25,262 nt of DNA from a virus, in the IMG/VR virus record IMGVR_UViG_3300029983_000084, positions 1 through 25,262 of that record; one strand, given 5' to 3'. Below the pieces are notes generated by a model. That model saw only the letters and a list, made by a program, of their open reading frames with translations. It was not told where the DNA came from and ran no database searches. The translations under genes and the position numbers were made by a program. Positions within the stretch are counted from its first letter, which is position 1, and every line of letters starts with the position of its first letter. Below, in pieces: positions 6,529-24,992 of the stretch.

Positions 6529-6562
6529 TATATAAGTAATGAAACATATCAAATTATTTGAA
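6525..6562 (+). repeat. 38-bp direct repeat, copy 2
   Basis: Identical to 5858-5895. It starts within the stop region of the interrupted gene, includes the TTAATATATAAGTA box, and covers the first eight codons of the 6539 gene. Sequences diverge right after both copies. Confidence 0.9.
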
Positions 6563-6886
6563 GCATACGATCAAGAAAAGTGGCGCGATGCTTATAAAGA
6601 AGGTGATTATATATTATTTAAAAATTCAAGATTAGATATGTATAAATTTAATAATAGATTATACATATTTAAATATGCTAAAATTATTGATATAAATAGT
6701 GAAGATCATATTGGACGTGAATGTACATTTGAAATTATTGTACATAATCCTTTAGAAGATGATAAAGATGCAAAATTTTTTATTTTAGGCACAAGAGACA
6801 AATTTGATTCAATTGAAAGAAAATTAACACCAAAAGAAATTGAAGAATTTGAATTAAAAAAGAATAAAATTAAATATAACTTATGA
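6539..6886 (+). CDS. Leader-bearing small protein with a possible SH3-like barrel
   Basis: 115 residues: leader MKHIKLFEAYDQE, then a beta-rich body with YKEGDYILFKNSR and KYAKIIDINSEDHIG. The spacing (E-G-D-Y-[IV] followed by a strand with I-x-x-I) resembles the small SH3-like proteins at 7351, 7642 and 16849. A charged helix (RKLTPKEIEEFELKKNKI) leads to the K-Y-N-L tail. The stop TGA overlaps a new ATG, which opens only a remnant. The SH3-like call is weak; function unknown. Confidence 0.7.
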   Translation: MKHIKLFEAYDQEKWRDAYKEGDYILFKNSRLDMYKFNNRLYIFKYAKIIDINSEDHIGRECTFEIIVHNPLEDDKDAKFFILGTRDKFDSIERKLTPKEIEEFELKKNKIKYNL

Positions 6887-6932
6887 AACATGAAACTTTA
6901 AAAAAAAATTATCAAAAAAATATAATTTATGA
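6883..6932 (+). pseudogene. Remnant cassette: leader start fused to a KYNL tail
   Basis: ATGAAACATGAAAC opens a new gene (M-K-H-E-T-L-K-K) at the stop of the 6539 gene. Within about 45 bases the sequence becomes AAATATAATTTATGA, the standard K-Y-N-L-stop/next-start joint, in another frame. Only the start and the tail of a cassette remain, as expected after an internal deletion. Confidence 0.55.
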
Positions 6933-7351
6933 AATATTTAAAAAAATTTGAATCAGAAAATATAATGGAAAAAGAACAATGTTTTGTTTTTCTTCAAGGA
7001 AATGATGCTAATATGGAGCATTACTATGATTTAGTTCGTGAAAGTAAAAATGATAATTTAATACTTTATCCTGAAAGAGCAATGACATTTGCTGATACTG
7101 TTGATTATAGACATTATGTTAAATCAGTAGTTACTGAAAATCCGTTTATAATATCTTGCTATCCAAGAGAGAATGTATGGGTATTACAAGATGATGAATG
7201 GGTTAATCCAGAGATACAAACATATGGAGCCAGTGTGAATATAATAACATCGTCAATTTTACAATATCATAATACAATACCAACTTCTGTCTTAGGTGGT
7301 GTCAAATTTAAAGATAGAGTTAAAAAATTAAAAAATTATAATCGGGATTAA
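6929..7351 (+). CDS. Leader-bearing protein of unknown function
   Basis: 140 residues, leader MKYLKKFESENIMEKE. The body has an alternating beta/alpha pattern: CFVFLQGNDANMEHYYDLVRES, NLILYPERAMTFADTVDYRHYVKSV, PFIISCYPRENVWVLQDDEW. This looks like a small Rossmann-like or nucleotide-binding fold, but no diagnostic motif is present and I do not recognise it. The terminal residues (KNYNRD) deviate from the K-Y-N-L tail. The stop overlaps the next start (TAATG). Confidence 0.7.
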   Translation: MKYLKKFESENIMEKEQCFVFLQGNDANMEHYYDLVRESKNDNLILYPERAMTFADTVDYRHYVKSVVTENPFIISCYPRENVWVLQDDEWVNPEIQTYGASVNIITSSILQYHNTIPTSVLGGVKFKDRVKKLKNYNRD

Positions 7352-7617
7352 TGAAATACTTGAAAAAATACGAAAGTTCAGAAAAAGATACACCAAAATT
7401 CAAAGAAGGTGATGATGTTATTTGTATAGATAATGAAGACTCATGCTTAACTAAAGATATGAGATACTTAGTGAAAAAAATATTCAAAAATAAAAATGGT
7501 TATTATGTTTGCAAAGTAAATAGTAAATTAGGAAAAATTGGAGAAACTTTTGGAACATTTTCTTGTGATAGATTTATATCAGAAATTAGAAACAATATTC
7601 AAAAATATAATTTATGA
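7351..7617 (+). CDS. Leader-bearing SH3-like small protein
   Basis: 88 residues: leader MKYLKKYESSEKD, then one small beta-barrel-like domain F-K-E-G-D-D-V-I-C-I-D-N ... M-R-Y-L-V-K-K-I-F ... Y-Y-V-C-K-V ... F-S-C-D-R-F-I-S, ending Q-K-Y-N-L. The product at 7642 has the same layout (FQIGDIVICIDN ... NIYQIENI ... PNRFRLA), so these are probably paralogues. Small SH3-like domains of this size bind proteins or nucleic acid; no catalytic residues are visible. Both ends overlap neighbours by a few bases. Confidence 0.75.
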   Translation: MKYLKKYESSEKDTPKFKEGDDVICIDNEDSCLTKDMRYLVKKIFKNKNGYYVCKVNSKLGKIGETFGTFSCDRFISEIRNNIQKYNL

Positions 7618-7645
7618 AACAGACCTAAATAAATATAATTTATGA
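7614..7645 (+). pseudogene. Minimal remnant cassette between two SH3-like genes
   Basis: Only 28 bases separate two starts: ATGAAACAGACC (M-K-Q-T) followed directly by CTAAATAAATATAATTTATGA, which in another frame reads L-N-K-Y-N-L-stop. This is a start and a tail with nothing between, a more extreme version of the remnant at 6883. Confidence 0.5.
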
Positions 7646-7941
7646 AACATTTAAAACTTTATACACAATACATTAAAGAATCTATCAAATTTGAAAATAC
7701 TAAAAATTTTCAAATTGGAGATATAGTTATATGTATTGATAATTCTTCAACAATATCCGATTATAATTATAGTAAATATTTAAAAATGAATAATATTTAT
7801 CAAATAGAAAATATAAAAAAATTTGATGATTGTGAACCAATTGAGCAATTAAAATTAGTTAATGTTAGACGATATTGGGAACCAAATAGATTTAGATTAG
7901 CAGCACCGGAAGAAATCATAACAAAAAAATACAATTTATGA
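7642..7941 (+). CDS. Leader-bearing SH3-like small protein
   Basis: 99 residues. Leader MKHLKLYTQYIKES contains I-K-E, a good [I/L]-x-E cleavage match. The domain follows: FQIGDIVICIDNSS (paralogous to 7351), YLKMNNIYQIENIKKF, LKLVNVRRYWEPNRFRLAAPEE. It ends K-K-Y-N-L. The W-x-x-x-R-F-x-x-A end is typical of small phage SH3-like proteins as I remember them, but I cannot name the family. Its stop overlaps the next start (TTATGA). Confidence 0.75.
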   Translation: MKHLKLYTQYIKESIKFENTKNFQIGDIVICIDNSSTISDYNYSKYLKMNNIYQIENIKKFDDCEPIEQLKLVNVRRYWEPNRFRLAAPEEIITKKYNL

Positions 7942-8519
7942 TAAAAAAATATTTAGAATATATTAAAGAGTCTATCACAACAGACGTCGATGGACTATTA
8001 GATAGTATCAATGATAAAAAAGGTGACTTTTTTATAATTCATCTATCTAATAGTGATTACTTAAATAAAACTATTGAGTATCTATATGATGATGCTAATT
8101 TTAATAAACAATTATTTAAAGACCATTTAAAAAAAGGCGAAATGGAATCTACAACTGACATTGAAAATTTTTTGAAAAAAGATATAGATATGAAATTTTT
8201 CTTTCTTTATAGTAGGAATGAATCAATATTAGATAATCCTGATTTTTTAATTTTGCAATATTATAAAGATGATAAATGGTCTCCTATTGAAATTTATACA
8301 ATTAAAGGTAAAGTTGAAGATTTTTACAAAAAATTAACCGCAAAAACAATTGAATTAACTGATAATAATATCACTTATGTATATGAAACATCAAATTCTG
8401 GAAATAATTGGTTATTAAAAGATAAAGATAAAAAGACTGATAAATTTAAAGAAAATTTAAATACCGATAGTATCAAAGATATTATACGATCTGGTGCTAA
8501 ATTAAAAATAATTGAATAA
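7938..8519 (+). CDS. Leader-bearing protein of unknown function
   Basis: 193 residues. Leader MIKKYLEYIKESI again carries I-K-E at positions 9-11. The body is alpha/beta (FFIIHLSNSDYLNKTIEYLYDD, FFFLYSRNESILDNPDFLILQYYKDD, SPIEIYTIKGKVEDFYKKL) and ends in IRSGAKLKIIE without the K-Y-N-L tail. There is no membrane segment and no recognised domain. It overlaps the genes on both sides by 1-4 bases. Confidence 0.75.
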   Translation: MIKKYLEYIKESITTDVDGLLDSINDKKGDFFIIHLSNSDYLNKTIEYLYDDANFNKQLFKDHLKKGEMESTTDIENFLKKDIDMKFFFLYSRNESILDNPDFLILQYYKDDKWSPIEIYTIKGKVEDFYKKLTAKTIELTDNNITYVYETSNSGNNWLLKDKDKKTDKFKENLNTDSIKDIIRSGAKLKIIE

Positions 8520-8842
8520 TGAAAACATTTGAAAAATTTATTGAAAAAGAAAAAATATTAATTAATAAAAGATATATTTTATGGTTTGATAATTCCGATG
8601 AATACAAAGATTTTAACACATATGAAATATTAGAAATGACAGAAATAACATATGAACCAGATATAAGATATTGGTCTGAAACAATTTATAAATATAATTC
8701 TGAAACAAATACACTCGAAGATTATTATGCAAATGGTGAAAATTTTTTTACAAATATGAACATGAATTCGGTTTTATATCAATCAAATAATCTTGAAGAA
8801 TTAAAAAACGAATTAATATCATCAAATAAATATAATTTATGA
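8519..8842 (+). CDS. Leader-bearing small protein of unknown function
   Basis: 107 residues. The leader MKTFEKFIEKE closely follows T4's MKTYQEFIxE. The body is Tyr/Asn-rich, with YILWFDNSDEYKDF and strands around YEILEMTEITYEPDIRYW. The end (SNNLEELKNELISSNKYNL) resembles the end of the 17187 product (SNRLEEVLDELEMI...KYNI), so the two may be distant paralogues. It overlaps both neighbours. Confidence 0.75.
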   Translation: MKTFEKFIEKEKILINKRYILWFDNSDEYKDFNTYEILEMTEITYEPDIRYWSETIYKYNSETNTLEDYYANGENFFTNMNMNSVLYQSNNLEELKNELISSNKYNL

Positions 8843-9288
8843 TTAAAACATTTGAAAAATTTAATAAAACATCACATGAGTATTCACGCTATAATATTAA
8901 ACATGCTGAATCACATTATGATGGCACACCAATAAAACATGATAATTCAAAATATGAAGATAATTTTTATTATATTATAGAGGAATACAAATTTACAATA
9001 TGTGATTTAAAATATTGTGCAAAAAGTGAAAGAACATTTGATATTAAATTTTTTGATTTTGCTAAAAATAAAGAATTGTTAAATATACTTAATATTGATC
9101 ATTACTATAATATTGAACAATTTATTAGTCATTTTTTAAGAGTTTTGGATAAGGATAAACAAACAGAAAAACTTTTAAAAAATCCAACACTTAGGATATT
9201 AGTTCAAGATGGCAATCTATTTCTTGATGTTTTAGAAATATTTAATCCAGATGATATAAGAGTTGTAGCAAGAAAATATAATTTATAA
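8839..9288 (+). CDS. Leader-bearing protein of unknown function
   Basis: 149 residues. Leader MIKTFEKFNKTSHE, then a His/Tyr-rich segment (YNIKHAESHYDGTPIKHD), helices around DIKFFDFAKNKELLNIL and IEQFISHFLRVLDKDKQ, and an end VVARKYNL. I recognise no domain. It is the last gene of the overlapping run that starts at 6929; the stop is TAA and is followed by about 50 non-coding bases carrying a TATATATA box. Confidence 0.75.
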   Translation: MIKTFEKFNKTSHEYSRYNIKHAESHYDGTPIKHDNSKYEDNFYYIIEEYKFTICDLKYCAKSERTFDIKFFDFAKNKELLNILNIDHYYNIEQFISHFLRVLDKDKQTEKLLKNPTLRILVQDGNLFLDVLEIFNPDDIRVVARKYNL

Positions 9289-10292: not shown

Positions 10293-10982
10293 ATGATTAT
10301 CTATAAAAAAATATATGAGTATTTAGAAAATAAGGAAAAAGCACAATATCATAAATTGATTGATTATACAAAAATATCAGACAATTTAAGTAATGATAAA
10401 ATTAAAGAATTGTGTAAAGAAGCAGAAGAAAATGGATTTTATTCTATTTGTATTCTACCAGAATTTGTTGCAACAGCCAACTCTTTTCTAAAAAATGAAA
10501 TTAAAATATCAGCATTAATTGGATTTCCAAAAGGAGATAGTAGTATAAAAGAAAAAATTGATGATATTGATAATGCAATTGTTAATGGTGCATCTGAAAT
10601 TGATGTGGTTATTAATTATAAGCTAATTAAACATGAAGAAGAACATGAAAAACTATCAGAAGAAATAGCAAAATTATCAGAATATTGTCATAGAGAAGGT
10701 GTTACAATTAAAGTAATTATTGAAATTGGCGCATTAAATTATCAAGAAATTGAATCTATTTGTAATATGTGTATTGATACTAGTGTAGATTATATTATGA
10801 CATCTACCGGAAAATTACCAAAAGATGATTCATTTCAGACCAAATTAGATAAAGTTAAATTTATGAGAAAAATATTACCAGATGAAATGAAAATAAAATT
10901 TTCTGGCGGTGTTCGAGATCCAAATCAAATAAAAGAATTATTACCATTTGTTGATCGTGTGGGTACTTCAGTTATAATTTAA
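10293..10982 (+). CDS. deoC: Deoxyribose-phosphate aldolase homologue lacking the Schiff-base lysine
   Basis: 229 residues with the complete DERA layout: HKLIDYTKIS (20-29), ALIGFPKGDSS (74-84), GASEIDVVINYKL with the conserved Asp D104, IKVIIEIGAL (139-148), YIMTSTGK (167-174), IKFSGGVRDP (201-210), VGTSVII at the end. DERA cleaves deoxyribose-5-phosphate to glyceraldehyde-3-phosphate and acetaldehyde through a Schiff base on the Lys of I-K-T-S-T-G-K. Here that residue is Met (M169, codon ATG at 10797-10799). The second active-site Lys appears kept (K202). I-E-I-G replaces the usual I-E-T. The product is therefore probably not a normal aldolase. The 3' end overlaps the convergent homing-endonuclease relic by 11 bases. 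The N-terminus MIIYKKIYEYLENKE is a poor leader match. Confidence 0.85.
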   Translation: MIIYKKIYEYLENKEKAQYHKLIDYTKISDNLSNDKIKELCKEAEENGFYSICILPEFVATANSFLKNEIKISALIGFPKGDSSIKEKIDDIDNAIVNGASEIDVVINYKLIKHEEEHEKLSEEIAKLSEYCHREGVTIKVIIEIGALNYQEIESICNMCIDTSVDYIMTSTGKLPKDDSFQTKLDKVKFMRKILPDEMKIKFSGGVRDPNQIKELLPFVDRVGTSVII

Positions 10983-11962
10983 TGATTTCAAACTCATCAT
11001 AATTTTTTTCAATTATAAATATAAAATTATAACCTTGTTCAATACAAGATTTTCGTTTTGCTAAATTTTTTTCTAAAAATATGTTATATGTATAATCAGA
11101 CTTTATTTCAATTATTAAATTTTTTTCTTTATAATAAAAATCTGGAAAATATTTTCTATTTTTACCATCATAAAAATATTCAATAGATTTATAATTTGTT
11201 ATATCTAAATTTTCATATTTTATTAAAAAATCCAATTCATATGTTCCTTGATATTTTAATTTATTAAAATTTTTCTTATGATAAGAATTTTTTAATGTTT
11301 TTTCAAAAATTTTATCATTTTGCATAGGATTTTTAAATCCATATCTTTCCAAATTTGTTTTTTGTTTTTATCCTTATTTCTTTATTTTGTTGAGTATATT
11401 CAACACCATATCTTTCTAAATTTGTTTGTTTAACTTTATCTTTAATTTTTTCTAATTCTTGAGGATGTTCAACACCATATCTATTTAAATTTGTTTCTTT
11501 AATTTTTTCTTTAACTTCATCAGATTGAAATGTATATACTGCTCTATATTTTTTCAAATTTGTCTCCTCTGTTCTATGCCTTATTTCCTTGTTTTGTTGA
11601 GGACTTTCAAATCCATACTTTTTCAAATTAGTTTTTTTAATTTTATCTTTTATTTTTTCATTTTGAAAAACATTATCAACACCATATTTTTCTAAAAATG
11701 TTTTTTTAACTTTATAAGATGCACATTTTTGACAGCAATAATAATTATGACTTTTCAAAGATTTAGTATAATTTGTCTTCTTTAATTCTATTTCTTCACC
11801 ACAAACATCACATTTGGCGTGTATGATAGTATTACTAGTTTTAGTTAAATGTGTAGATAATACAGAAATATTTACTCCAAATACAGCATCATAACCTAAT
11901 TCTTTAAAATAATTTATATTTCTATATCCAATTTCAATTACAATATATTCTTCAATTATCAT
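10972..11962 (-). pseudogene. Frameshifted homing endonuclease (zinc finger, YG-repeats, PD-(D/E)XK nuclease)
   Basis: Two frames together make one protein. The first frame (11962-11333) has a Cys4 zinc finger (CDVCGEE...CCQKC, about residues 52-81). It then has six roughly 25-residue repeats of the form K-x-K-x-T-N-L-x-[KR]-Y-G-V-x-x-x-x-Q, each a likely DNA-contact unit. The second frame (from about 11352) begins with the next copy (ERYGFKNPMQN). It ends in a nuclease domain with Y-E-L-D-F-L, K-Y-F-P-D-F-Y and L-I-I-E-I-K-S (P-D...E-x-K), as in phage homing endonucleases. The frames break at a run of six A on the coding strand (T6 at 11358-11363). Two more A would restore the repeat spacing, one less would restore the frame. 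It sits against the 3' end of deoC and is coupled at its start to a tiny RHH gene. Confidence 0.8.
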
Positions 11963-13308: not shown

Positions 13309-13948
13309 TTACAACAAATATCTAATGAAAGAAAATTTATCAAATTTTGATCTAACAAAATTGGTCACTATTACAGCCATTAATAAAGATGAAAATGGTA
13401 ATTGGCTTTATGTTACAAGTGATAATAAAACACTTTTTTTACCTAAAGAACAAGCAGGTAGAATAACACTAATAGATGACAAATTTGCAAATTTTGTAAA
13501 TTCTGGGCATCCAATCACAAAATATTTTGAATTAGATAATGGTGATAAAATAATCTATGCAGCCAACTTTGCATGTGATGCAATTCCATTTAGAGAAGGT
13601 CATGTATATCTAATTGAAAGAGTTGATGGTAGAGGTTGGGCTATACCTGGTGGATTTATAGATGCTGGTGAAACACCAGAACATGCAGCCAAACGTGAAT
13701 TACAAGAAGAAACGTTAGCAAAATTAGATGATATTAAAAGAATAGAACCACTTGGTGTTTTCAAAACTAATGATCCAAGAGAAATAGAATTCTATTCTTA
13801 TCCATTTGTATTCCATATGAATAATTCAGCTGAACTAAAATTTGCTGATGATGCTAAAAATGGAAAATGGGTTTTATTAAGTAGAGCAATTAAAATGAAT
13901 TTAGCTTTCACACATCATAATGAATTTCTTAAAAAGATTTATTATTAA
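13298..13948 (+). CDS. Nudix hydrolase with a leader-like N-terminus
   Basis: 216 residues. The Nudix box is complete: G119-x5-E125-x7-R133-E-L-Q-E-E (GFIDAGETPEHAAKRELQEE), followed by T-L instead of the usual x-G. The preceding VYLIERVDGRGWAIPGG and the later LGVFKTNDPREIEFYSYPFVF fit the fold. The family hydrolyses nucleoside diphosphates linked to another group, such as ADP-ribose, NADH or dinucleoside polyphosphates. The layout, with an extra N-terminal beta domain (20-90), resembles ADP-ribose/NAD-type Nudix enzymes, but the substrate is inferred. The start MITNYNKYLMKENLSNF looks like a variant leader, so the enzyme may be packaged. It is the last gene of its operon and overlaps a convergent gene by four bases. 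Confidence 0.9.
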   Translation: MITNYNKYLMKENLSNFDLTKLVTITAINKDENGNWLYVTSDNKTLFLPKEQAGRITLIDDKFANFVNSGHPITKYFELDNGDKIIYAANFACDAIPFREGHVYLIERVDGRGWAIPGGFIDAGETPEHAAKRELQEETLAKLDDIKRIEPLGVFKTNDPREIEFYSYPFVFHMNNSAELKFADDAKNGKWVLLSRAIKMNLAFTHHNEFLKKIYY

Positions 13949-14271
13949 AGATTAAATTTATCTATATTCTTTTTAATTTTTTGATAATTCTTAATTTCTG
14001 GTGTTACAGTTTCCAAATAATTATACAATTTAATTATTAACATTGTGCCATCAATTAATGGATCAAAAATTTTATTATAATCAGACGCTTTAACTTTAAT
14101 TTGCCTAGTTTTTTTATCAAAATAAATATATGAATATTCTCTATTTTTATATATTAAAGGAGGATCTATTTTCACCTCAGTCTTTTTTGTGTAATCAAAA
14201 TAATCTCTTATTAATTTAGAATATTTAACAAGATTATCAAATCTTTCTTCATATTGCTTTAAATATTTCAT
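13945..14271 (-). CDS. Leader-bearing protein of unknown function (minus strand)
   Basis: 108 residues. Leader MKYLKQYEERFDN, helix (LVKYSKLIRDYFDYTK), beta hairpin (REYSYIYFDKKTRQIKVKASD), helix (PLIDGTMLIIKLYNYLETV) and the tail N-I-D-K-F-N-L. It shows that the leader/tail design is not limited to the plus-strand runs. Directly downstream of another leader gene with the same D-K-F-N-L tail; the joint TTTAATCTTTAATTATGAAA separates them. Confidence 0.7.
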   Translation of the reverse strand: MKYLKQYEERFDNLVKYSKLIRDYFDYTKKTEVKIDPPLIYKNREYSYIYFDKKTRQIKVKASDYNKIFDPLIDGTMLIIKLYNYLETVTPEIKNYQKIKKNIDKFNL

Positions 14272-14273
14272 AA

Positions 14274-14736
14274 TTAAAGATTAAATTTATCTACATTTAT
14301 ATATAATTCATAATCTTCAATATTTAATTTTGAAATTAATAAATCTATATCTTCTATTTTTACACTATTAAACCCGCCTGGAGAAATAAGACCTCTTAAA
14401 AATTTATAAAATAAATCATATTTTTTAAGACTATCATCAGATACAAACATATTCCAATCTACTTGAATATTAACAGAATAATTATTACGATTAACCATAC
14501 TTTCAGCTAAAGCTAATTCACATTTAAAAATATATTCTTGTTTGAAATTATTTTGGTAAAAAGCAATACGACAACAAGAGTGTTGAAGATTAGTCCAATT
14601 ATAAGTAGTCTTAGAATCAATAAAAATCCTTATAAAATCTAGATATTTCTGTAGATAATTTTTTTATTTTCTCAAAAGAGTACAATTTCTTAATATTTTC
14701 TAAAGGAAACTCATATTCTTCAAATGTTTTTATCAT
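14274..14736 (-). pseudogene. Leader-bearing unknown protein split by a one-base frameshift
   Basis: The ATG at 14736 starts MIKTFEEYEFPLENIKK and the frame stops after 39 codons at TGA 14617-14619. Reading continues in the next frame as D-F-I-D-S-K-T-T-Y-N-W-T-N-L and runs to V-D-K-F-N-L at 14274. Removing one base from the T5 run on the coding strand (A5 at 14622-14626) fuses the parts into one protein of about 153 residues with both leader and tail. The second part contains CCRIAFYQNNFKQEYIF and VNIQVDWNMFVSDD; not recognised. It may be decay, phase variation or a sequencing indel. It starts five bases after the repeat-protein gene. Confidence 0.6.
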
Positions 14737-14741
14737 ATTAA

Positions 14742-15800
14742 TTATTTTTTTATATTGCTATTAGCATATAAAATTTTATTATCTTTAATTGTATTATTAT
14801 CAGTCACATTATTATCATACAATTGCTCATTCATCAAGGTATTTGTATCATCAACATTAGAATATAAAATTTCACCTTGTAATCTATTATTAGATTTTTT
14901 ATCTGAGTATAATATAGCATTATCCATTTTTCTTATAACATCTACATTTTCAAACAAAGAGTCACCATCAAGTATGTTTTTTTTATCTTTATTCACAAAT
15001 AAAATATCATTAGTTAATCTATTTTTAGAATCAACATTAATAAACAATTCCTCATTTTTTAATTGATTTTTAGAATCAACATTAGCAAACAATTCCTCAT
15101 TTTTTAATTGATTCTTAGAATCAACATTAGCAAACAACTCTTCATTTTTTAACTTATTCTTAGAATCAACATTAGCAAACAACTCTTCATTTTTTAACTT
15201 ATTTTTAGAATCAACATTAATAAATAATTCCTCATTTTTAAGAGAATGATTCTTATCTACATTTATAAAAAGATTTTCATCTTTTAGATTGTTATTAGAT
15301 TCTATATTTATATAAACATCACCACTTAATGTACGCTTAGAATCTATATTTTCATATACAGATCCACTTAATGTTCTATTAAAATCTACATTTTTATATA
15401 AATCTTCATCTTTTAATTTATTGATTGAATTAATATTATTATATAAGTTTTCATTTTTTAATTTATTATTTGAATCAATATTATTATATACAATTTCATC
15501 ATTAGGTGTTTTAATCTTATCTATATTTTTATATAAAAATTCATCATTGGGTGTTTTATTTCTATCACCTTTTTCTAACGGATTATCATAATCTATAAAT
15601 TTTGTATAAGGAGGATTAAACACAACATCACCATTTGGAGTTTTATTCCTATTATTTTTATTTTCATTAGGATTATCATAATCAATAAAAGTGGTAAATG
15701 GTGGTCCATATACAACTTCACCTTCCGGAGTTTTATTTAAAAACGCATGATTATTAACTATAAGTTTATCAATAACCATATTTGACGTATTATCTGGCAT
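14742..15800 (-). CDS. Repetitive protein built of 15-residue repeats
   Basis: 352 residues. The N-terminal third has two longer repeats (NKTPxGxVVxxPPxTxFIDYDNP). It then has about 17 units of 13-15 residues of the form [L/T]-x-x-[ED]-x-L-[FY]-x-N-[VI]-D-S-x-N-x. In the centre (about 183-258) five units are nearly identical. The pattern suggests a solenoid or fibre-like rod, or an extended binding array such as a tail fibre shaft or virion decoration protein. It has no leader, signal peptide or cysteine. It follows two genes (16784-15790) with 11 bases of overlap, all probably one operon. The real fold is not predictable by eye. Confidence 0.8.
   Translation of the reverse strand: MPDNTSNMVIDKLIVNNHAFLNKTPEGEVVYGPPFTTFIDYDNPNENKNNRNKTPNGDVVFNPPYTKFIDYDNPLEKGDRNKTPNDEFLYKNIDKIKTPNDEIVYNNIDSNNKLKNENLYNNINSINKLKDEDLYKNVDFNRTLSGSVYENIDSKRTLSGDVYINIESNNNLKDENLFINVDKNHSLKNEELFINVDSKNKLKNEELFANVDSKNKLKNEELFANVDSKNQLKNEELFANVDSKNQLKNEELFINVDSKNRLTNDILFVNKDKKNILDGDSLFENVDVIRKMDNAILYSDKKSNNRLQGEILYSNVDDTNTLMNEQLYDNNVTDNNTIKDNKILYANSNIKK
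15027..15251. repeat. Five tandem 45-bp coding repeats
   Basis: Units start with AGAATCAACATTA (plus strand) at 15027, 15072, 15117, 15162 and 15207, in exact 45-base register. They differ by a few bases, mostly CAA/AAG-type and silent changes. They encode N-V-D-S-K-N-x-L-K-N-E-E-L-F-[AI]. More diverged units continue on both sides. Confidence 0.95.
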
Positions 15801-16242
15801 TTTCTTCTTTTCGTTTTTTAATCATTTCTTGAAGATATTGATCTGCTGGCAATTTGATATCTGGATCTCTCTTCTTATCCACCTTTTCAATATTTTCTTT
15901 AATTCCTTCTTTTTCATTTATTTCCTTTACTAATGATGCCAAATAATTTTCTGGGCTTACATTAGAATCCTCTTCAGTATAATTTAATCCATAAATACTC
16001 TCATCATTAAAAATATAAAATTCAGTAGTAGGCAAAGTAAAATCTTGGTAAAAAATCAATTTTCCTATTGTACCATAGGTTAATACTTGCTTTCCTGTCA
16101 TATTCAAATATTTCAACATAAATGGATCTTTAATTTCAACAGTTTCTCCATTCATAGGAATAAAATTTTTTCCAAGATCCAATTTAAATATTGATATTTT
16201 CCTAAAAATGTTTAACATAAACGTGTTTGCGACTACTATCAT
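15790..16242 (-). CDS. Probable structural protein of unknown function
   Basis: 150 residues. The first 110 are beta-rich with an aliphatic core (MLNIFRKISIFKLDLGKNFIPM, VEIKDPFMLKYLNMTGKQVLTYGTIGKLIFYQDF). The rest is a charged helix ending in LPADQYLQEMIKKRKEENAR, a possible coiled coil. I do not recognise it. It overlaps the gene before by four bases and the repeat protein by 11, which argues for a common role, perhaps as base or adaptor of the repeat rod. No leader motif. Confidence 0.7.
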   Translation of the reverse strand: MIVVANTFMLNIFRKISIFKLDLGKNFIPMNGETVEIKDPFMLKYLNMTGKQVLTYGTIGKLIFYQDFTLPTTEFYIFNDESIYGLNYTEEDSNVSPENYLASLVKEINEKEGIKENIEKVDKKRDPDIKLPADQYLQEMIKKRKEENAR

Positions 16243-16784
16243 TGGGTATAAATATTATCTTTTAAATCATTTTTATCAGTACCTTTATCATCTGATTTAT
16301 CTTTTAATTGACCTATTTTATCAATTATAAAATCTTCTTTAATGTCTTCTACATTAACTTCTTCAACTAATTCACCTTTTTCTTTATTTTCTTCATCAAA
16401 TTGATGAATTTTCAAAAGAACTTTATTTATTTCTAAATTTTTTTGTTCTGCCGGTAATGCTTCCGCACCTTGTGCTTGTGACTGTCCTTGTCCTTGTGCC
16501 TCAGCATCCTTCATCTGATCAAGACGAACCATAAACGTCATTCTATATCTAAAAGATGAGCCTTCTTCTTCATCACCTTCTGTGATTGGCTCAACAAAAT
16601 TACAAATCAAAAATTTTTCCATTGGATTATAGTTTGAAATCTGAATATCTCCATCTATTTCACAACCTTGTGCCGATAGTGAGCCCTCTGTAAACCATTT
16701 CTGAATTTGTGATTGTAATTCTTTAAAAAAGACTGAGATTTTATAATCAGCAGACTCTACATATTCTTCAAACAATTTTTGCAT
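16239..16784 (-). CDS. Leader-bearing probable virion protein with a Gln/Gly/Ala linker
   Basis: 181 residues. It starts MQKLFEEYVESADYK, a good match to the leader and notably close to T4 internal-protein starts. A helix (ISVFFKELQSQIQKWFTEG) and beta region (CEIDGDIQISNYNPMEKFLICNFV; RYRMTFMVRLDQM) follow. Then comes a low-complexity linker A-Q-G-Q-G-Q-S-Q-A-Q-G-A-E-A that is far richer in G+C than the rest, and an acidic helical C-terminus ending in KSDDKGTDKNDLKDN. First gene of the minus operon 16784-14274, with a TTTATATATACATAA box upstream. The acidic tail and leader suggest a scaffold or internal head role. Confidence 0.7.
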   Translation of the reverse strand: MQKLFEEYVESADYKISVFFKELQSQIQKWFTEGSLSAQGCEIDGDIQISNYNPMEKFLICNFVEPITEGDEEEGSSFRYRMTFMVRLDQMKDAEAQGQGQSQAQGAEALPAEQKNLEINKVLLKIHQFDEENKEKGELVEEVNVEDIKEDFIIDKIGQLKDKSDDKGTDKNDLKDNIYTQ

Positions 16785-16848: not shown

Positions 16849-17190
16849 ATGAGATATCTAAAAACATATGAAAATTTAAATAAAGATATAGAAGTCGGAG
16901 ACATTGTAAAATATACTAAATATAATAATCATGATGGTAATAATTGGTCTGGTTATGATAAAGTTATTTATATAGGTGAAATAGAAAAAATAAACGACGG
17001 CAATTCAAAATACAGATTTATAGTTAAATATGAATTTCAATATTATAAAAATGTAGAAAATTATGCATCTGATTCTGGTGGTACTATATTATTTATTAAT
17101 AAATCAGAGTTAAATAGAATGAAAAAATTAAATGATGATGAATTTAATAAAATAGTAATAAAATACCAAACAAATAAATTCAATATATGA
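16849..17190 (+). CDS. Leader-bearing small protein with a possible SH3-like barrel
   Basis: 113 residues. Leader MRYLKTYENLNKD, then IEVGDIVKYTKY ... DKVIYIGEIEKINDG ... YRFIVKYEFQYY, the same V-G-D-I-V plus I-x-x-I-x-x-I layout as the small barrels at 6539 and 7351. It ends with a charged helix and T-N-K-F-N-I. The helix-plus-tail end is like the 6539 product. First gene of the second run; overlaps the next start by four bases (ATATGA). Confidence 0.7.
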   Translation: MRYLKTYENLNKDIEVGDIVKYTKYNNHDGNNWSGYDKVIYIGEIEKINDGNSKYRFIVKYEFQYYKNVENYASDSGGTILFINKSELNRMKKLNDDEFNKIVIKYQTNKFNI

Positions 17191-17510
17191 AATATCTAAA
17201 AACATTTGAATTATTAAATAAAGATAATGATTATAATAGATACTCAATATTTAAAGAATATACATTATTCAAATCAACTCCTTCCAGTTATTGTAAGGAA
17301 CCCTGTTATTATATTATGAAAAATAGGGGCAATGAATGTCAAACTATTTTCAACATTTATAAAGGTGAAATAAACAAAGCTAAAAATAAATATTATTATA
17401 AACCAGATATTCATACACTATATAACGAATACATGTTTGATTCAAATAGATTAGAAGAAGTGTTGGACGAACTTGAAATGATATTATTAAAAGATAAATA
17501 TAATATATAA
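17187..17510 (+). CDS. Leader-bearing small protein of unknown function
   Basis: 107 residues. Leader MKYLKTFELLNKDND, a Tyr/Cys segment (SSYCKEPCYYIMKNRGNECQ), a strand (TIFNIYKGEINKAKNKYYY), then FDSNRLEEVLDELEMILLKDKYNI. The last part resembles the 8519 product's end. Three cysteines close together are unusual here. Function unknown. Confidence 0.7.
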   Translation: MKYLKTFELLNKDNDYNRYSIFKEYTLFKSTPSSYCKEPCYYIMKNRGNECQTIFNIYKGEINKAKNKYYYKPDIHTLYNEYMFDSNRLEEVLDELEMILLKDKYNI

Positions 17511-17511
17511 T

Positions 17512-17847
17512 ATGAAAATTAGAAAAGTACATGAAAATCAAGAAGTGTCTAATGATGAAATAACTAAACTATTTAAAGAACTAAAATATCATGATACAAA
17601 ACATAGAGAAATAGATAAAAAATTAGCTATTATCTGTAAAGAAAAATTAGAAACATACATATATAGAAACGATTTATCTTCATTTGAAATAAAAAATATT
17701 TTCTATGATTTTTATAGAAATCATTATAGTGATGATCCAGAAGATAAAAATGATACTGTAGATTTTTCTTTTGAAAAAGAAATGGTATTAATGTGGCTTA
17801 ATAAAAAACTAAAAGTAAAAGAAGAAGCAAAAAAATATAATATATGA
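17512..17847 (+). CDS. Leader-like helical protein of unknown function
   Basis: 111 residues. N-terminus MKIRKVHENQEVSND is a weak leader. The rest is helical and charged (EITKLFKELKYHDTKHREIDKKLAIICKEKLETYIYR; SSFEIKNIFYDFYRNHY; FEKEMVLMWLNKKLKVKEEAKKYNI). It has the K-Y-N-I tail and the TATAATATATGA joint to the next gene. No domain recognised. Confidence 0.7.
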   Translation: MKIRKVHENQEVSNDEITKLFKELKYHDTKHREIDKKLAIICKEKLETYIYRNDLSSFEIKNIFYDFYRNHYSDDPEDKNDTVDFSFEKEMVLMWLNKKLKVKEEAKKYNI

Positions 17848-18347
17848 AATATTTAAAATTATTAGAAGAATGTGCAAAAGATAGAGTAAAAAAACGAGAA
17901 AGAGAAACGTTTGATAATCGTAGTATGATATCTAAAAATAGAGAATATAACGTAAATTCTATTTTAAAAAAAATACAAAAACAATTTCCAAAAGAAAAAT
18001 TTATTATTGATGATTATTATAAATCAGCTAAATGTGTATTTTTACATGCAGATCACACTAGTCTATTAAATTCTTGGAATAGAGATTCTTATAATTATAA
18101 AGATGGTTTAAATAAAGATTTTGCAGAATGGTTAATAAAAAATAAACTTAATTGGACTTGGAGAACAGAAAAAGGAAGAGATTGGTGGGATGGTATACAA
18201 ATTACACCAAAAGATTTTCAAGGTTTATATTGGTATTATGGTGAGCCAATAGAGGAAAATATTAAAAAAATAAAAATACCAGAAGATATAAAAAAAAGAA
18301 TAAATGAATATTTATTCAAAAAAAATGTAAAAAAATTTAATATATGA
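17844..18347 (+). CDS. Leader-bearing Trp-rich protein of unknown function
   Basis: 167 residues. Leader MKYLKLLEECAKD, a basic helix (RVKKRERETFDNRSM), a helix (NVNSILKKIQKQFPKEKFIIDDYY), then a Trp-rich region (LLNSWNRDSYNY; WLIKNKLNWTWRTEKGRDWWDGIQI; GLYWYYGEP), and the tail V-K-K-F-N-I. The Trp cluster suggests a compact ligand- or protein-binding domain. Not recognised. It overlaps both neighbours by four bases. Confidence 0.7.
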   Translation: MKYLKLLEECAKDRVKKRERETFDNRSMISKNREYNVNSILKKIQKQFPKEKFIIDDYYKSAKCVFLHADHTSLLNSWNRDSYNYKDGLNKDFAEWLIKNKLNWTWRTEKGRDWWDGIQITPKDFQGLYWYYGEPIEENIKKIKIPEDIKKRINEYLFKKNVKKFNI

Positions 18348-18879
18348 AATATTTAAAAACATATGAAGATATAGTGACATTTGATTTAAATGATAATGAA
18401 AAAAAGGAATTAATATCAATGGCAATTGAAAGAGGTAATATAAATATATTAAAATCATTATTAGATAATGTTTACCAGATTATATTGATGATATTCAACC
18501 AATTATTACTATACAATATCATATAGAAAATAATTATAGTTTAGATATGATTAAACTATTTATTGATCATGGTTATAATGTTAATAAAATAGATATAAAT
18601 AATGGAAACACTTTATTAATCAATTCAATTTATAATTTTAGAAAAAAAAATACTGAAAAATTTCTTAAAATGTTTGAAATGCTCATAGATGCAGGTGCAG
18701 ACACCACTATTTTTATTAATGATGATGATGATGATCGTGGTGGTTATGATTTTTATGATATTTTAGATAATATGACAAAGATAAAATCATTAAAAAAGAA
18801 CATTCTAAATATTATTAAAAATAAAAAACCAGATCAATATAATTATTACTTAGCAAAAAAAAAATATTATAAAATATAA
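18344..18879 (+). pseudogene. Leader-bearing ankyrin-repeat protein split by a one-base deletion
   Basis: The first frame reads leader MKYLKTYEDIVTFDLN and a partial ankyrin unit (LISMAIERGNINILKSLLDN), then leaves frame at about 18470 and stops at 18524-18526. The next frame continues D-Y-I-D-D-I-Q-P-I-I ... DMIKLFIDHGYNVNKIDINNGNTLLINSI ... FEMLIDAGADTTIF, which are clear ankyrin units (L-I-D-x-G-A-D). Adding one G after 18470 gives L-L-D-N-G-L-P-D-Y-I and joins both parts into one protein of about 178 residues. Ankyrin repeats bind proteins. The gene ends Y-Y-K-I, but the next joint (AAATATAATTTATGA) is kept in another frame. Confidence 0.7.
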
Positions 18880-18882
18880 TTT

Positions 18883-19950
18883 ATGAAACACTTAAAAACA
18901 TTTAACGAATCAGAAGTTTCTTCAGGAAACGCATCAGGAAAAGCAGGAGTAGGATCATTAGAGCCATTTGGTACTGGATATTATAAATCTGGTAATAATG
19001 GTGAGTTTGGTACACAATTTACACCAAGCGCCGAACCAACTTTCAAAACATATAAAAGTATGAAACATTCTAAAAAGAACATAAAAAAGAAAACAAAAAA
19101 TTCAACATTAGTTGAAAACATATCAAATCTTAAATTAGAATCTGTTAAAGATACAGACATCATAAAATTAGTTTGTGATTATGGTTTATGTGTAGAAGAT
19201 AGAGATGGATATGGGGAATGGAACAAATATATGGTTTATAATAGAGCTGAAGAAGCTATGTTTCAAACACCAAAACAAATTGCAGACGCAATATTAGAAC
19301 TATTAAAATATGATATAAATACATATTGTGAAATTGGTATATTTAAAGGTGGTTCACATCTTTTAATAACAGAAATGCTAAAATTAAAAAATCCTAATTT
19401 AAAAACTATTGGAATTGATATTCAAGATAAGCATATGACAGAAGATATTAAAAATTATATCAATTTACACATAGGAACAAGTGAGGATTATAAAGGTGAA
19501 AAATTTGACTTGGTGTTTATTGATGGTGATCATTCTTATGAAGGAATAAAAACTGATTATGAAAATTTAGGACAATATGCTAAAATTGTAATGTTTCATG
19601 ATGTGAATGATAGTACTTGCCCAGGTGTTGTCAAATTCTGGAATGAAATAAAAGAAGGTAAAGAATTCAAAGAATTCACATACCAAACAAATAATCAACC
19701 AATTCAAGGAATAGGATTATTATTTAATTCCAAAGTAATAACAGAAAAATCAAAAATAGAAAATTTAAAAGATATGTTAAATGATTGTACAGAAGCACAA
19801 CAATTAATATTTAAAAGAATGTACTCACATAACAATTTAGAATTATCTATAAATGAAGTTGTTGATAAAATGGATAAATCTAAAATAGATCACGCAACTT
19901 ATCAAGTTGAAAATACATTAAAAAAATTATTTAATAAATATAATATATAA
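18883..19950 (+). CDS. Leader-bearing class I SAM-dependent methyltransferase
   Basis: 355 residues. Leader MKHLKTFNESEVS, then a Gly/Ser linker with E-F-G-T-Q-F-T-P and a Lys-rich patch (HSKKNIKKKTKN, 62-73). The Rossmann-fold methyltransferase (Methyltransf_24 type) follows at about 120-270: motif I C-E-I-G-I-F-K-G-G-S-H (149-159), the ribose-binding acid in T-I-G-I-D-I (D179), F-D-L-V-F-I-D-G-D-H-S-Y (208-219), and V-M-F-H-D-V (236-241). A helical C-terminus ends F-N-K-Y-N-I. This family often acts on sugars, small molecules or protein; the substrate is unknown. The leader-linker-basic patch order is shared with the 20765 product. Last gene before a homing endonuclease insertion. Confidence 0.85.
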   Translation: MKHLKTFNESEVSSGNASGKAGVGSLEPFGTGYYKSGNNGEFGTQFTPSAEPTFKTYKSMKHSKKNIKKKTKNSTLVENISNLKLESVKDTDIIKLVCDYGLCVEDRDGYGEWNKYMVYNRAEEAMFQTPKQIADAILELLKYDINTYCEIGIFKGGSHLLITEMLKLKNPNLKTIGIDIQDKHMTEDIKNYINLHIGTSEDYKGEKFDLVFIDGDHSYEGIKTDYENLGQYAKIVMFHDVNDSTCPGVVKFWNEIKEGKEFKEFTYQTNNQPIQGIGLLFNSKVITEKSKIENLKDMLNDCTEAQQLIFKRMYSHNNLELSINEVVDKMDKSKIDHATYQVENTLKKLFNKYNI

Positions 19951-19956
19951 TTAAAA

Positions 19957-20778
19957 ATGAAAAAAAGTAATAATATAGAATTTATAGAAAAATCAAATAA
20001 AATTCATAAACATGGTGTTTTTGAACAAATTTCTGGAACTCATCTATATAATAAATGTGGTTGTCCAAAATGCCAAAATAATTATAGACCAAACAATCAA
20101 GAATTTATAAAAAAATCTAAAGAAACACATAACAACAATTATGATTATTCGTTAGTTGATTATATAAATTCTGAAGTTAAGGTAAAAATAATTTGTTCTA
20201 AACATGGTATTTTTGAACAAAAACCATGTAAACATTTAAAAAGTCAAGGATGTCCAAAATGTGCAAAAAATGTAAAATTAACTATTGATGATATTGTTAA
20301 TAGGTCCAATATAATTCATAATTATAAATATTTAATATTAGATCAGGAATATATCAATAATAGAACAAAACTAACAATTACATGTAAAACATGTAATAAG
20401 ACATTTTCTCAAAGTGTTGATGATCATTTAAGGGGTAAAATAGGTTGTGATTGTTATATAAAATCTAAAGGTGAAATCGCAATTTCAAAATTTTTATTTA
20501 ATCAAAATATTTCTTTTGAAACTCAGAAAAGATTTAATAATTGTAGAAACACACTTACATTACCTTTTGATTTTTATTTATCTACATATAATATAGCAAT
20601 AGAATTTGACGGCAGACAACATTTTAATATAAATACTAAATTTTATACTCCAGAAATAGAGAAAAATGATAAAATAAAAACAAATTATTGTATAAACAAT
20701 AATATAAATCTATTAAGAATTAAATATGATGAAAATATTGAAGAAAAAATAAAAAAATATCTATATGAAAAAATTTAA
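19957..20778 (+). CDS. Homing endonuclease, zinc-ribbon repeats plus EDxHD (Vsr-like) nuclease
   Basis: 273 residues. Three repeats of F-[IV]-x-[KR]-S-x-x-x-H-x-x-x-Y-x-Y ... C-x-x-H-G-x-F-x-Q ... G-C-P-x-C bind zinc and DNA (about 7-45, 48-95, 105-160). The nuclease domain (165-273) has S-K-G-E-I-A-I-x-K-F-L, I-S-F-E-T-Q-K-R-F-x-x-C-R, L-P-F-D-F-Y-L and I-A-I-E-F-D-G-R-Q-H-F. These are the hallmarks of the I-Bth0305I/EDxHD phage homing endonucleases related to Vsr. The first repeat is shortened: K-I-H joins directly to K-H-G-V-F-E-Q, omitting about 25 residues. It sits between two leader genes and overlaps the second by 14 bases, as a mobile insertion. Confidence 0.9.
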   Translation: MKKSNNIEFIEKSNKIHKHGVFEQISGTHLYNKCGCPKCQNNYRPNNQEFIKKSKETHNNNYDYSLVDYINSEVKVKIICSKHGIFEQKPCKHLKSQGCPKCAKNVKLTIDDIVNRSNIIHNYKYLILDQEYINNRTKLTITCKTCNKTFSQSVDDHLRGKIGCDCYIKSKGEIAISKFLFNQNISFETQKRFNNCRNTLTLPFDFYLSTYNIAIEFDGRQHFNINTKFYTPEIEKNDKIKTNYCINNNINLLRIKYDENIEEKIKKYLYEKI

Positions 20779-21016
20779 AGAATATATTAAAGAAGATGCT
20801 TGTGCAACATTAGGCAACACAGGTGGAATGGGAGCTGTTATATCTGCACAACCTTCTGCAACTCCTGGCTCAGTAAATGCATCAGATTCTATTGCTGGAA
20901 GCGGAGATATTGGTCAATTATTTGGCACGTATGCAAAACCAGCTCTAAAAACGAAAAAGAAGAAAGGTAAGCACAAAATGAGTAATTTGACAACTTATGC
21001 AAATTTTAGACCATAA
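20765..21016 (+). CDS. Leader-bearing small Gly/Ser-rich protein, probable packaged or structural protein
   Basis: 83 residues. MKKFKEYIKEDACATLGNTGG is among the best leader matches: Y-I-K-E then D, i.e. an [I/L]-x-E site at 8-10. Next a low-complexity Ala/Gly/Ser segment (VISAQPSATPGSVNASDS), G-S-G-D-I-G-Q-L-F-G-T-Y-A-K-P, a Lys-rich patch (KTKKKKGKHK) and LTTYANFRP. The F-G-T-x-x-x-P plus Lys patch recurs in the methyltransferase's N-terminal region. The codons here are less AT-biased than in neighbours. A small basic leader protein of this kind would suit a DNA-associated internal head protein; this is inference. Confidence 0.75.
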   Translation: MKKFKEYIKEDACATLGNTGGMGAVISAQPSATPGSVNASDSIAGSGDIGQLFGTYAKPALKTKKKKGKHKMSNLTTYANFRP

Positions 21017-21019
21017 TTT

Positions 21020-21622
21020 ATGATAACAAATTTTAAAATATTTGAATATAATAATAATGATATTGATGATATATTAAATCAAATTGATAATTTTTTAAAT
21101 TCTACTAAAAGAAATTTATGGATCGAAAATGATGAAATAAAAATTTATATACGAAAATCAAAAAGATTTTTCAAAAATCGAGTATTAGATTTTTTTGATT
21201 TTGCATCAATTGAAGTTGAAAATACAGGTCAAGGTTTATTTACTAAAATACTTAAAAAATTTGAAGAAATATACCCAGATAAAAATATATTTATAGAATC
21301 AGTTTTAACTGAAAGATTTGCGGATTATATTAAAAATAAACTTGGATTTGAAAAAGAGTCAGATAATGTTAATAACTTTTATAAAATCAGAACAACAATT
21401 GATTATGAAATTATTAATGATACTTATAATGATTATATTAATACACCTGAATTTAGTAAAGAAATAATGTTAAGACATATAAAAAGAACACTTTTAGGAT
21501 TTATAAAAAATAGAAATTCATCAATAGATGATTGGATTAAAAAATTCAAAAATGAAGAATTAGTAATGAAAGAACTTAATCAAATAAAACTTGATTTAGA
21601 AACAAAAAAATATAATATATGA
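21020..21622 (+). CDS. Leader-like GNAT-family acetyltransferase homologue
   Basis: 200 residues. N-terminus MITNFKIFEYNNND (leader variant). A GNAT-like core at about 50-130: strand VLDFFDFASIEV, the acetyl-CoA loop N-T-G-Q-G-L-F-T-K-I-L (matching [QR]-x-x-G-x-[GA] loosely as G-Q-G-L), helix LKKFEEIYP, strand NIFIESVL, helix RFADYIKNKLGFE and strand NNFYKI. A helical C-terminal part (140-200) ends T-K-K-Y-N-I. Substrate unknown. Overlaps the next ATG by four bases. Confidence 0.65.
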   Translation: MITNFKIFEYNNNDIDDILNQIDNFLNSTKRNLWIENDEIKIYIRKSKRFFKNRVLDFFDFASIEVENTGQGLFTKILKKFEEIYPDKNIFIESVLTERFADYIKNKLGFEKESDNVNNFYKIRTTIDYEIINDTYNDYINTPEFSKEIMLRHIKRTLLGFIKNRNSSIDDWIKKFKNEELVMKELNQIKLDLETKKYNI

Positions 21623-23987: not shown

Positions 23988-24992
23988 ATGAATTACTATG
24001 TGTATGTGTATTTAGATACAAGAAAACCAGGAAATTATACTTATAATGAACTTATTTTTAATTACGAACCAATTTATGTTGGTAAAGGTAAAAAAAGAAG
24101 ATATAAAAATCACTTATCACTAAGATTAAATATGGAAAATCATTTTTATCATAAATTAAATAAAATAATTAATGAAGGCTTTGAACCAGAGATATTAATT
24201 ATTAAAGATAATATAAGTGAAAATGACGCATTTGATTACGAAATAGAATTAATAAAAAATATAGGAAGACTAATAGACAACACTGGTACATTAACTAATT
24301 TAACAACTGGAGGTGAAGGTTCATCAGGTAGAATATGTGAAAAAGAAACAAAGAAAAAAATGTCTGATATGAAAATTGGAAAAAAGATAAAATATATTAA
24401 TTCCGATCATCATCCAATGAAAGATAAATCTTTTGATGAATTTTTTGGAATAGAAAGATCAACTAAACTCAAAAAATTAATATCAAAAAATGCGAACCCA
24501 ACCAATAAAGGTAAAAAAATGTCAACAGAATATTGCGACAATATTTCAAAATCTATACAGAATTGGTATAAAAACAAACCAGAAATAACACAAAAAATTT
24601 CGGACACACTTAAAAAAAGATTTGAAAATAAAGAAAATCATCCAATGTTTGGAAAGCATCATAGTGAATTGTCAAAAAATAAACTTTCGGAATCATTAAA
24701 AAAATATTATAAGGAACATAAAAAAATTATGTCTGAAGAAACTAAGAAAAAAATATCAATAAGACATATAGGCGATAAAAATCCTTCATTTGTTATTTAT
24801 AAAATAAAAAATATTGAAACAAACGAAATAATAACTATTAATGGTTCTAATGAATTAAAAATATTTATATCTAATTTTAAAAAAGAAAAAGGACTAGGTA
24901 TAACCTCTTCTCCTTCTTACAATTTACTTATTACTGGTAAAAATGAAAAATATTTTATCTTAATTGACAAATATTCTCCTAATAGAAAATAA
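23988..24992 (+). CDS. GIY-YIG homing endonuclease with NUMOD-type repeats
   Basis: 334 residues. The catalytic domain (1-105) has Y-V-Y-V-Y-L-D (GIY position), P-I-Y-V-G-K-G-K-K-R-R (YIG position with the following Arg), a helix with N-H-F-Y-H-K-L, E-I-L-I-I-K-D-N and L-T-N-L-T-T-G-G-E-G-S-S-G. The DNA-binding part has NUMOD3-like repeats (ETKKKMSDMKIGKK; NPTNKGKKMSTEYCDNISKSIQNW; NHPMFGKHHSELSKNKLSESL; SEETKKKISIRHIGDKNPS). A terminal module (IKNIETNEIITINGSNELKIF) resembles NUMOD1-type ends. It is free-standing between two minus-strand genes with its own promoter box, typical of Seg-like phage endonucleases. Appears intact. Confidence 0.9.
   Translation: MNYYVYVYLDTRKPGNYTYNELIFNYEPIYVGKGKKRRYKNHLSLRLNMENHFYHKLNKIINEGFEPEILIIKDNISENDAFDYEIELIKNIGRLIDNTGTLTNLTTGGEGSSGRICEKETKKKMSDMKIGKKIKYINSDHHPMKDKSFDEFFGIERSTKLKKLISKNANPTNKGKKMSTEYCDNISKSIQNWYKNKPEITQKISDTLKKRFENKENHPMFGKHHSELSKNKLSESLKKYYKEHKKIMSEETKKKISIRHIGDKNPSFVIYKIKNIETNEIITINGSNELKIFISNFKKEKGLGITSSPSYNLLITGKNEKYFILIDKYSPNRK

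Follow-up and report, generated by a model that had tools for sequence, protein, structure and literature searches.

A variable-length phage protein of 15-residue tandem repeats as a candidate tail-associated rod

The last gene of a three-gene operon (A-B-C) in a 25,262-base IMG/VR virus record, the whole of which is called the window here, encodes a 352-residue protein that consists of little else than one repeated motif. Because the number and the wording of the repeat units vary among relatives, and because a similar chain is found in a tail-tip protein of a 735-kb phage, the gene C product is probably an adjustable tail rod. We hold with middling confidence that it would be a variable-length, tail-associated structural rod, a reading based on the fused copy in the 735-kb phage together with the gene neighbourhood. 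Its location in the virion, its rod shape, the mutational mechanism and any spacing or contact role at the tail are what we infer. Repetitive phage proteins with variable copy number are a kind already known, of which the gene C product (hereafter C) is a variant, while its repeat motif seems to represent a family that has no name as yet, absent from Pfam and PHROGs.

Gene C and its repeat array

Gene C starts with ATG and is the last of three genes with overlapping starts (Table 1). From the N- to the C-terminus its units measure 30, 29, sixteen times 14–15, 17 and 17 residues (n = 20), and the corresponding lengths in the DNA of the window are mostly 42, 45 and 51 bases. The periodicity is well above that of shuffled sequences: residue identity at lag 15 is 0.374, compared with a maximum of 0.155 (lags 5–39, 1000 shuffles), and DNA identity at lag 45 is 0.564, compared with a maximum of 0.442 (500 codon shuffles). 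Tandem Repeats Finder reports a period of 45 at 15007–15239 with a score of 340, the highest of its 20 rows for the window.

Table 1. Positions of the A-B-C operon and of the parts of gene C within the window
Feature	Positions	Strand	Description
Gene A	16239..16784	-	181 aa; 4-nt overlap with gene B; N-terminus MQKLFEEYVESADYK
Gene B	15790..16242	-	150 aa; directly upstream of gene C; 11-nt overlap with gene C
Gene C	14742..15800	-	352-aa protein; 20 tandem motif units; conserved N- and C-terminal caps
N-terminal cap	15726..15776	-	VIDKLIVNNHAFLNKTP; residues 9–25; conserved
Two long N-terminal units	15561..15737	-	30 and 29 aa; NKTPxGxVV(Y/F)xPP(F/Y)TxFxDYDN
Homogenised core	15027..15251	-	Five 45-bp units
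C-terminal cap	14745..14843	-	TNTLMNEQLYDNNVTDNNTIKDNKILYANSNIKK region; recognisable in intact relatives

The core had been recognised in an earlier sequence-only reading of this DNA, and the unit starts found here (15027, 15072, 15117, 15162 and 15207) agree with it. That reading counted about 17 imperfect units around the core, which is roughly right, the actual figure being 15 plus the five of the core. Its description of the five copies as nearly identical holds for the first four, which share 38–44 of 45 bases with each other, and is slightly overstated for the fifth (15207–15251), which shares only 33–37 of 45 bases with the others (73–82% identity).

The consensus derived from 112 units of 15 residues in eight proteins is N (N/K) x L x (N/G) E x (L/V) (F/Y) x N (V/I) D x. 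L4, E7 and N12 are conserved in 78%, 85% and 87% of these units, respectively. The units were cut at the aliphatic-aromatic pair at positions 9–10, so that the conservation of this pair, being fixed by the cutting, is no evidence. At the N-terminal cap, columns I10, D11, N16, N17, H18, L21 and P25 are invariant in alignment A3.

Several other ORFs of the window have repetitive or shared features of their own. Many small ORFs combine a start of the MKxLKxFE type with a K(F/Y)N(L/I) end; they occur at window positions 6539–9288, 13945–14498 (minus strand) and 16849–21622, and also in the C-clade loci L005–L007, L009, L017, L022, L080, L082 and L084. The K(F/Y)N(L/I) end is present in 13 of the 47 ORFs of the window, and both ends occur together in nine, compared with 4.7 expected. 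As the codons of this end vary (for example AAA/AAG, TTT/TTC, TAT/TAC, AAT/AAC, TTA/TTG/CTA), the tag is evidently kept at the protein level; it was absent from 71 ORFs of the 735-, 642- and 634-kb phages. One idea is that the two ends form a two-ended sorting or packaging signal. A second C-terminal ending, of the KxKKLNxIC type, is common to neighbouring small ORFs at 3–296, 281–634 and 622–870 of the window and at L082:368–1175. The minus-strand region 10972–11962 holds a 69-bp tandem repeat (11315–11715, score 229) within a 209-residue ORF with units of the KYGxxxPQQNxEI type. A further unit of this type, in a different frame, opens the next ORF, at 10972–11352, and a single nuclease-like gene may therefore be split here by a frameshift. 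ORFs that we take by eye to be TnpB-like and GIY-YIG-like are located at 915–2129 and 23988–24992 of the window and at L013:10817–12007, suggesting mobile genes near the A-B-C operon in the window and in one relative.

Relatives, unit number and selection

Viral contigs were scanned with A, B and C themselves and also with B and C profiles, which gave 13 distinct related contigs with B. C directly follows B in all 13 of these IMG/VR contigs, one copy (L022) running off the contig end, and the reading frame of gene C is open in each of the 13 examined. The sequence-only reading had grouped the two upstream genes with C, and the recurrence of the A-B-C order in relatives bears this out. Scans of GTDB genomes with the B and C profiles revealed no relative, and searches of phage collections with C gave no match.

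Over 14,002 bases, one related contig matches the window exactly. Including the window, the 14 copies of gene C amount to nine distinct sequences, with 20 units in the window, 18, 30, 26, 23, 23, 23 and 24 (L036) units in the others, and at least 16 in the copy that is cut. Unit number thus varies between relatives, from 18 to 30 in intact copies, as had been anticipated from the window; an identical number in all relatives, which had been named as evidence against that expectation, was not found. The middle of C consists in each lineage of its own homogenised unit, for example SKNKLNNENVYVNND in L016, 16-residue units of the NNTLTSESLYDENTK type in L017, ENNSLKGEKVFDNVS in L022 and NKDEDKLLNGEQLFE in L036. 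The last 30 residues are recognisable in the intact copies, least so in L036. The nearest non-identical relative of the window C is that of L013 (71% identity), than which it is about two units longer, the alignment gap falling just before and inside the core.

For two contigs without a mismatch over 16,537 bases, the sole difference is a 6-bp in-frame deletion inside C, located between short direct repeats. The event was seen once, in a single pair of contigs, and may be due to an error of assembly. Near-identical contigs that were grouped together otherwise have equal unit numbers, so that no rapid change was seen within strains.

It might be argued that such an array is a near-neutral repeat expansion with no specific function in a dispensable gene. 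Its repeats are AT-rich and prone to slippage, and the 6-bp indel in C as the only difference between two 16.5-kb stretches agrees with this reading. We nevertheless regard it as very improbable. Differences between adjacent units in the window are more frequent at synonymous sites (pS 0.41) than at non-synonymous ones (pN 0.28), and the pN/pS ratio of adjacent units is between 0.35 and 0.78, that is, below 1, in all eight proteins, which indicates that the motif is under selection at the protein level. The conserved end caps and the frame that stays open in every contig likewise argue against neutrality.

Fold, composition and known repeat families

Based on profile searches, neither Pfam nor PHROGs accounts for the array, in agreement with the earlier statement that no known repeat family fits. 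Seven C proteins (the window and six relatives) had no Pfam match above the cut-off; for the L017 protein, Fibrinogen_BP reached 28.2 bits against a cut-off of 50. The best PHROGs matches (2.5e-06 for L022 and 0.0002 for the window) are to families of unknown function and cover only parts of the array. No earlier description of the repeat was found in the literature searched, most subscription journals lying outside its scope. A search of PDB sequences with A, B and C revealed no sensible relatives; its interleukin-1 beta rows for C (E value 0.00029 and worse) were taken as chance matches of a biased profile. For gene B, a fold search gave no PDB match at E ≤ 0.001 and one viral match of unknown function (A0A8D9FSF4, E value 8e-07). 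The likeness of its product to FlhA and to HK97-type capsid domains is weak (Z near 5), and no function was assigned from it.

C was modelled with AlphaFold2 as a monomer from an eight-row alignment. The model has no confident fold (mean pLDDT 36), and in the middle of the array it shows two short strands per unit in a solenoid-like core with a pLDDT of about 55 at best. A structure search with this model gave a best Z of 9.4, to the designed solenoid 4yei. As AlphaFold2 is reported to give unrealistic solenoids for repeats (PMC11795689), no fold is drawn from the model, and the VIA-align matches to designed solenoids, YrdA and leucine-rich proteins were left uninterpreted because of the same bias.

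The triple beta-spiral shafts of the adenovirus fibre and of reovirus sigma1 share with C a repeat of 15 residues and, as far as the low-confidence model goes, units with two short strands and one turn each. The consensus of these shafts has hydrophobic residues at positions c, e, g, k and m and Pro or Gly at j (PMC3150272). This candidate was rejected, since none of the 15 registers of the 112 units of 15 residues agrees with the consensus: the register with the most hydrophobic residues reaches a fraction of 0.56 with Pro/Gly at 0.00, and the one with the most Pro/Gly reaches 0.28 with a hydrophobic fraction of 0.26. Collagen-like phage tail fibres (PF01391; PHROGs tail fibre families) resemble C in being repetitive phage proteins, and one is encoded near C in contig G004. 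Unlike them, C has no Gly-X-Y repeat, and PF01391 had no match among the C proteins tested (the window and six relatives).

The composition of C bears on the main rival to the rod. C could be an intrinsically disordered multivalent array in which the unit is a short linear motif that binds one partner, for example B, A or a host protein, and in which copy number tunes avidity and not length. All seven C proteins tested fall on the disordered side of a charge-hydropathy plot, with 14–27% Asn and almost no Cys or Trp; pLDDT is below 50 for 276 of the 352 residues of the model; the spacing of units varies from 14 to 17 within one protein; and tandem-repeat proteins of Borgs are commonly disordered (PMC9879509). 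Yet the recurrence of L4, E7 and N12 through 112 units is a fuller pattern than a minimal motif needs, and the AlphaFold2 model has a regular pattern of two strands per unit, although the same program is known to invent solenoids for repeats (PMC11795689). On balance, we consider the disordered array possible but doubtful.

The comparison with Borgs extends beyond disorder. Their aaTR proteins belong to archaeal extrachromosomal elements, have mostly perfect repeats and comprise many unrelated proteins (PMC9879509). C resembles them in its in-frame units (divisible by three bases, as in the aaTR criterion), in rapid turnover, in a unit composition that is kept while the DNA differs, and in its disorder-leaning composition. 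It differs from them in being one conserved phage family, in which the units are imperfect, the ends are capped and the gene neighbours are constant. That C is itself a Borg-element protein of Methanoperedens was rejected, as its relatives are phage contigs with a baseplate-spike gene.

Tail genes, lysins and a proposed role

The evidence for a tail location comes from outside the window, in which no fibre or baseplate genes were identified. The C profile was run over 12 records and an extended profile over five huge-phage records. The sole match of the C profile to anything other than C is one place in the 735-kb genome (E value 6.3e-10); the extended profile found nothing in the other four of the five huge phages. 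The matching stretch comprises residues 778–947 of a 1214-residue ORF of phage LR756501 (L069:7513–11157), which lies between a gene that is hub-like by eye and a baseplate-spike gene, directly before the latter. It scores 25.6–27.3 bits, compared with at most 10.3 across 2000 shuffles, and is the top non-C match among 466 ORFs, the next having 8.0 bits. The best single unit in this ORF, NKTLNNITLYNN, scores 19.0 bits, compared with 10.7 for the next over 441 proteins.

The first approximately 280 residues of the same ORF are related to an unfused baseplate-cluster protein of the C-bearing phages (38–40% identity; E values 5e-43 and 1e-53), and that protein is encoded at the place where the 735-kb phage has the 1214-residue ORF. 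The LR756501 protein is thus like C in its C-terminal 15-residue units and unlike it in being fused to a baseplate-cluster domain, in the strong degeneration of its units and in an additional block. The latter, set apart from the C-like stretch, is a regular 14-residue repeat of the PPVSGTIDTSF type, with an identity of 0.66 at lag 14. What ties that stretch to C is the pair of profile and unit scores; it is degenerate, with a lag-15 identity of 0.130 that is not above shuffles, so that the likeness could be a case of convergence. The unfused protein has a conserved tail, NKIEPDN(V/I)Y, found by pattern in seven of nine loci and, with L for I, in an eighth (L075). The suggestion, made by eye, that this tail is one C unit was dropped, as its score did not place it in the best 23 of the non-C rows.

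The neighbourhood of C points to the tail as well. The spike gene is located 13–21 kb from C on the opposite strand in all nine records that hold both, and was not seen in two of the 11 C-bearing records. Its relatives contain the Phage_base_V OB domain (PF04717) and match PHROGs baseplate families, and in some the OB domain is fused to VanY or GH19 cell-wall enzymes. Two such fusions are at L071:1480–3543 and L079:9285–10991, one with GH19 and the other with the VanY peptidase. In G004, the only contig examined in this respect, an Ig-domain protein and a collagen-like tail-fibre protein are encoded 10–19 kb upstream on C's own strand, the collagen-like fibre about 16–18 kb from C (PF01391 at L098:14939–17779).

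The operon itself has relatives in huge-phage genomes. With tblastn, gene B can be recognised in those of 735, 642 and 634 kb; a relative of gene A was aligned in the 735-kb phage, and similarly placed ORFs are present in the other two. In each of these phages B is followed by an amidase without an intervening C (PF01510 shown for the 735-kb phage), while contigs G004 and G006 have C placed after B and directly before Amidase_2 (PF01510). This gives C the look of having been inserted into an A-B-amidase set that is older, although the amidase itself is present in only two of the 11 C-bearing records. The same arrangement would also fit A-B-C as the front of a lysis or lysin module, with C helping to localise or time the amidase that follows, and the lysin that adjoins C in some relatives is a cell-wall enzyme. 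This we judge to be improbable: Amidase_2 was found anywhere in only two of the 11 C-bearing records, most of which are fragments; hydrophobic segments are absent from the window C, where the mean hydropathy of 19 residues reaches 0.18 at most; and the 735-kb phage has the amidase in its A-B set and the C-like repeats in its baseplate cluster.

Another placement would see C inside the head or among the ejected proteins, or would make it a morphogenetic tail ruler. The start of gene A, of the MKKLFEEYVES type, resembles the capsid-targeting leaders of T4-like phages, and a variable number of units is what would be expected of a ruler. C itself has no leader of this type, and we think that this placement has very little in its favour, though more than near-neutral expansion has.

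With regard to the host, ribosomal protein S21 (PF01165, above cut-off) is encoded in five of the 11 C-bearing records (G003, G004, G006, G008 and G010), roughly 4–10 kb from the A-B-C operon. S21 has been reported for phages of freshwater Bacteroidetes (PMC9723584), and Bacteroidetes hosts were predicted for huge phages above 634 kb (PMC7162821). The C-bearing phages may thus infect Bacteroidota.

Taken as a tail rod, C would probably be a repetitive, variable-length tail or baseplate protein of a huge myophage related to the 735-kb genome and its relatives, and its production would probably go along with that of A and B. A link of 14–16 residues would probably run from a short strand through a turn into a longer strand, and the two conserved end pieces would anchor the chain between them. 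Replication slippage or unequal recombination may add or remove whole links in frame and re-homogenise the middle, while selection would preserve the motif as the links turn over; lineages would therefore come to differ in both length and wording. More tentatively, we propose that C is a free-standing tail-tip rod of evolvable length, with a previously unnamed 15-residue link, which in the 735-kb phage is built into a baseplate protein; huge phages would have separated and re-fused the rod, and slippage would allow its length to be switched quickly in host contact.

Should C be located on the tail, these phages would possess a structural part whose length and surface could be changed in one replication slip, with its end fittings fixed. 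As the lineages differ from one another in their homogenised link and in link count, the natural contigs form a graded series from 18 to 30 links, which is suited to asking about effects of length on the architecture of the virion or on host contact. For cryo-EM maps of huge phages, the fused copy of the 735-kb phage marks a definite site to inspect, and, if the reading is true, C would represent a repeat family new to Pfam and PHROGs.
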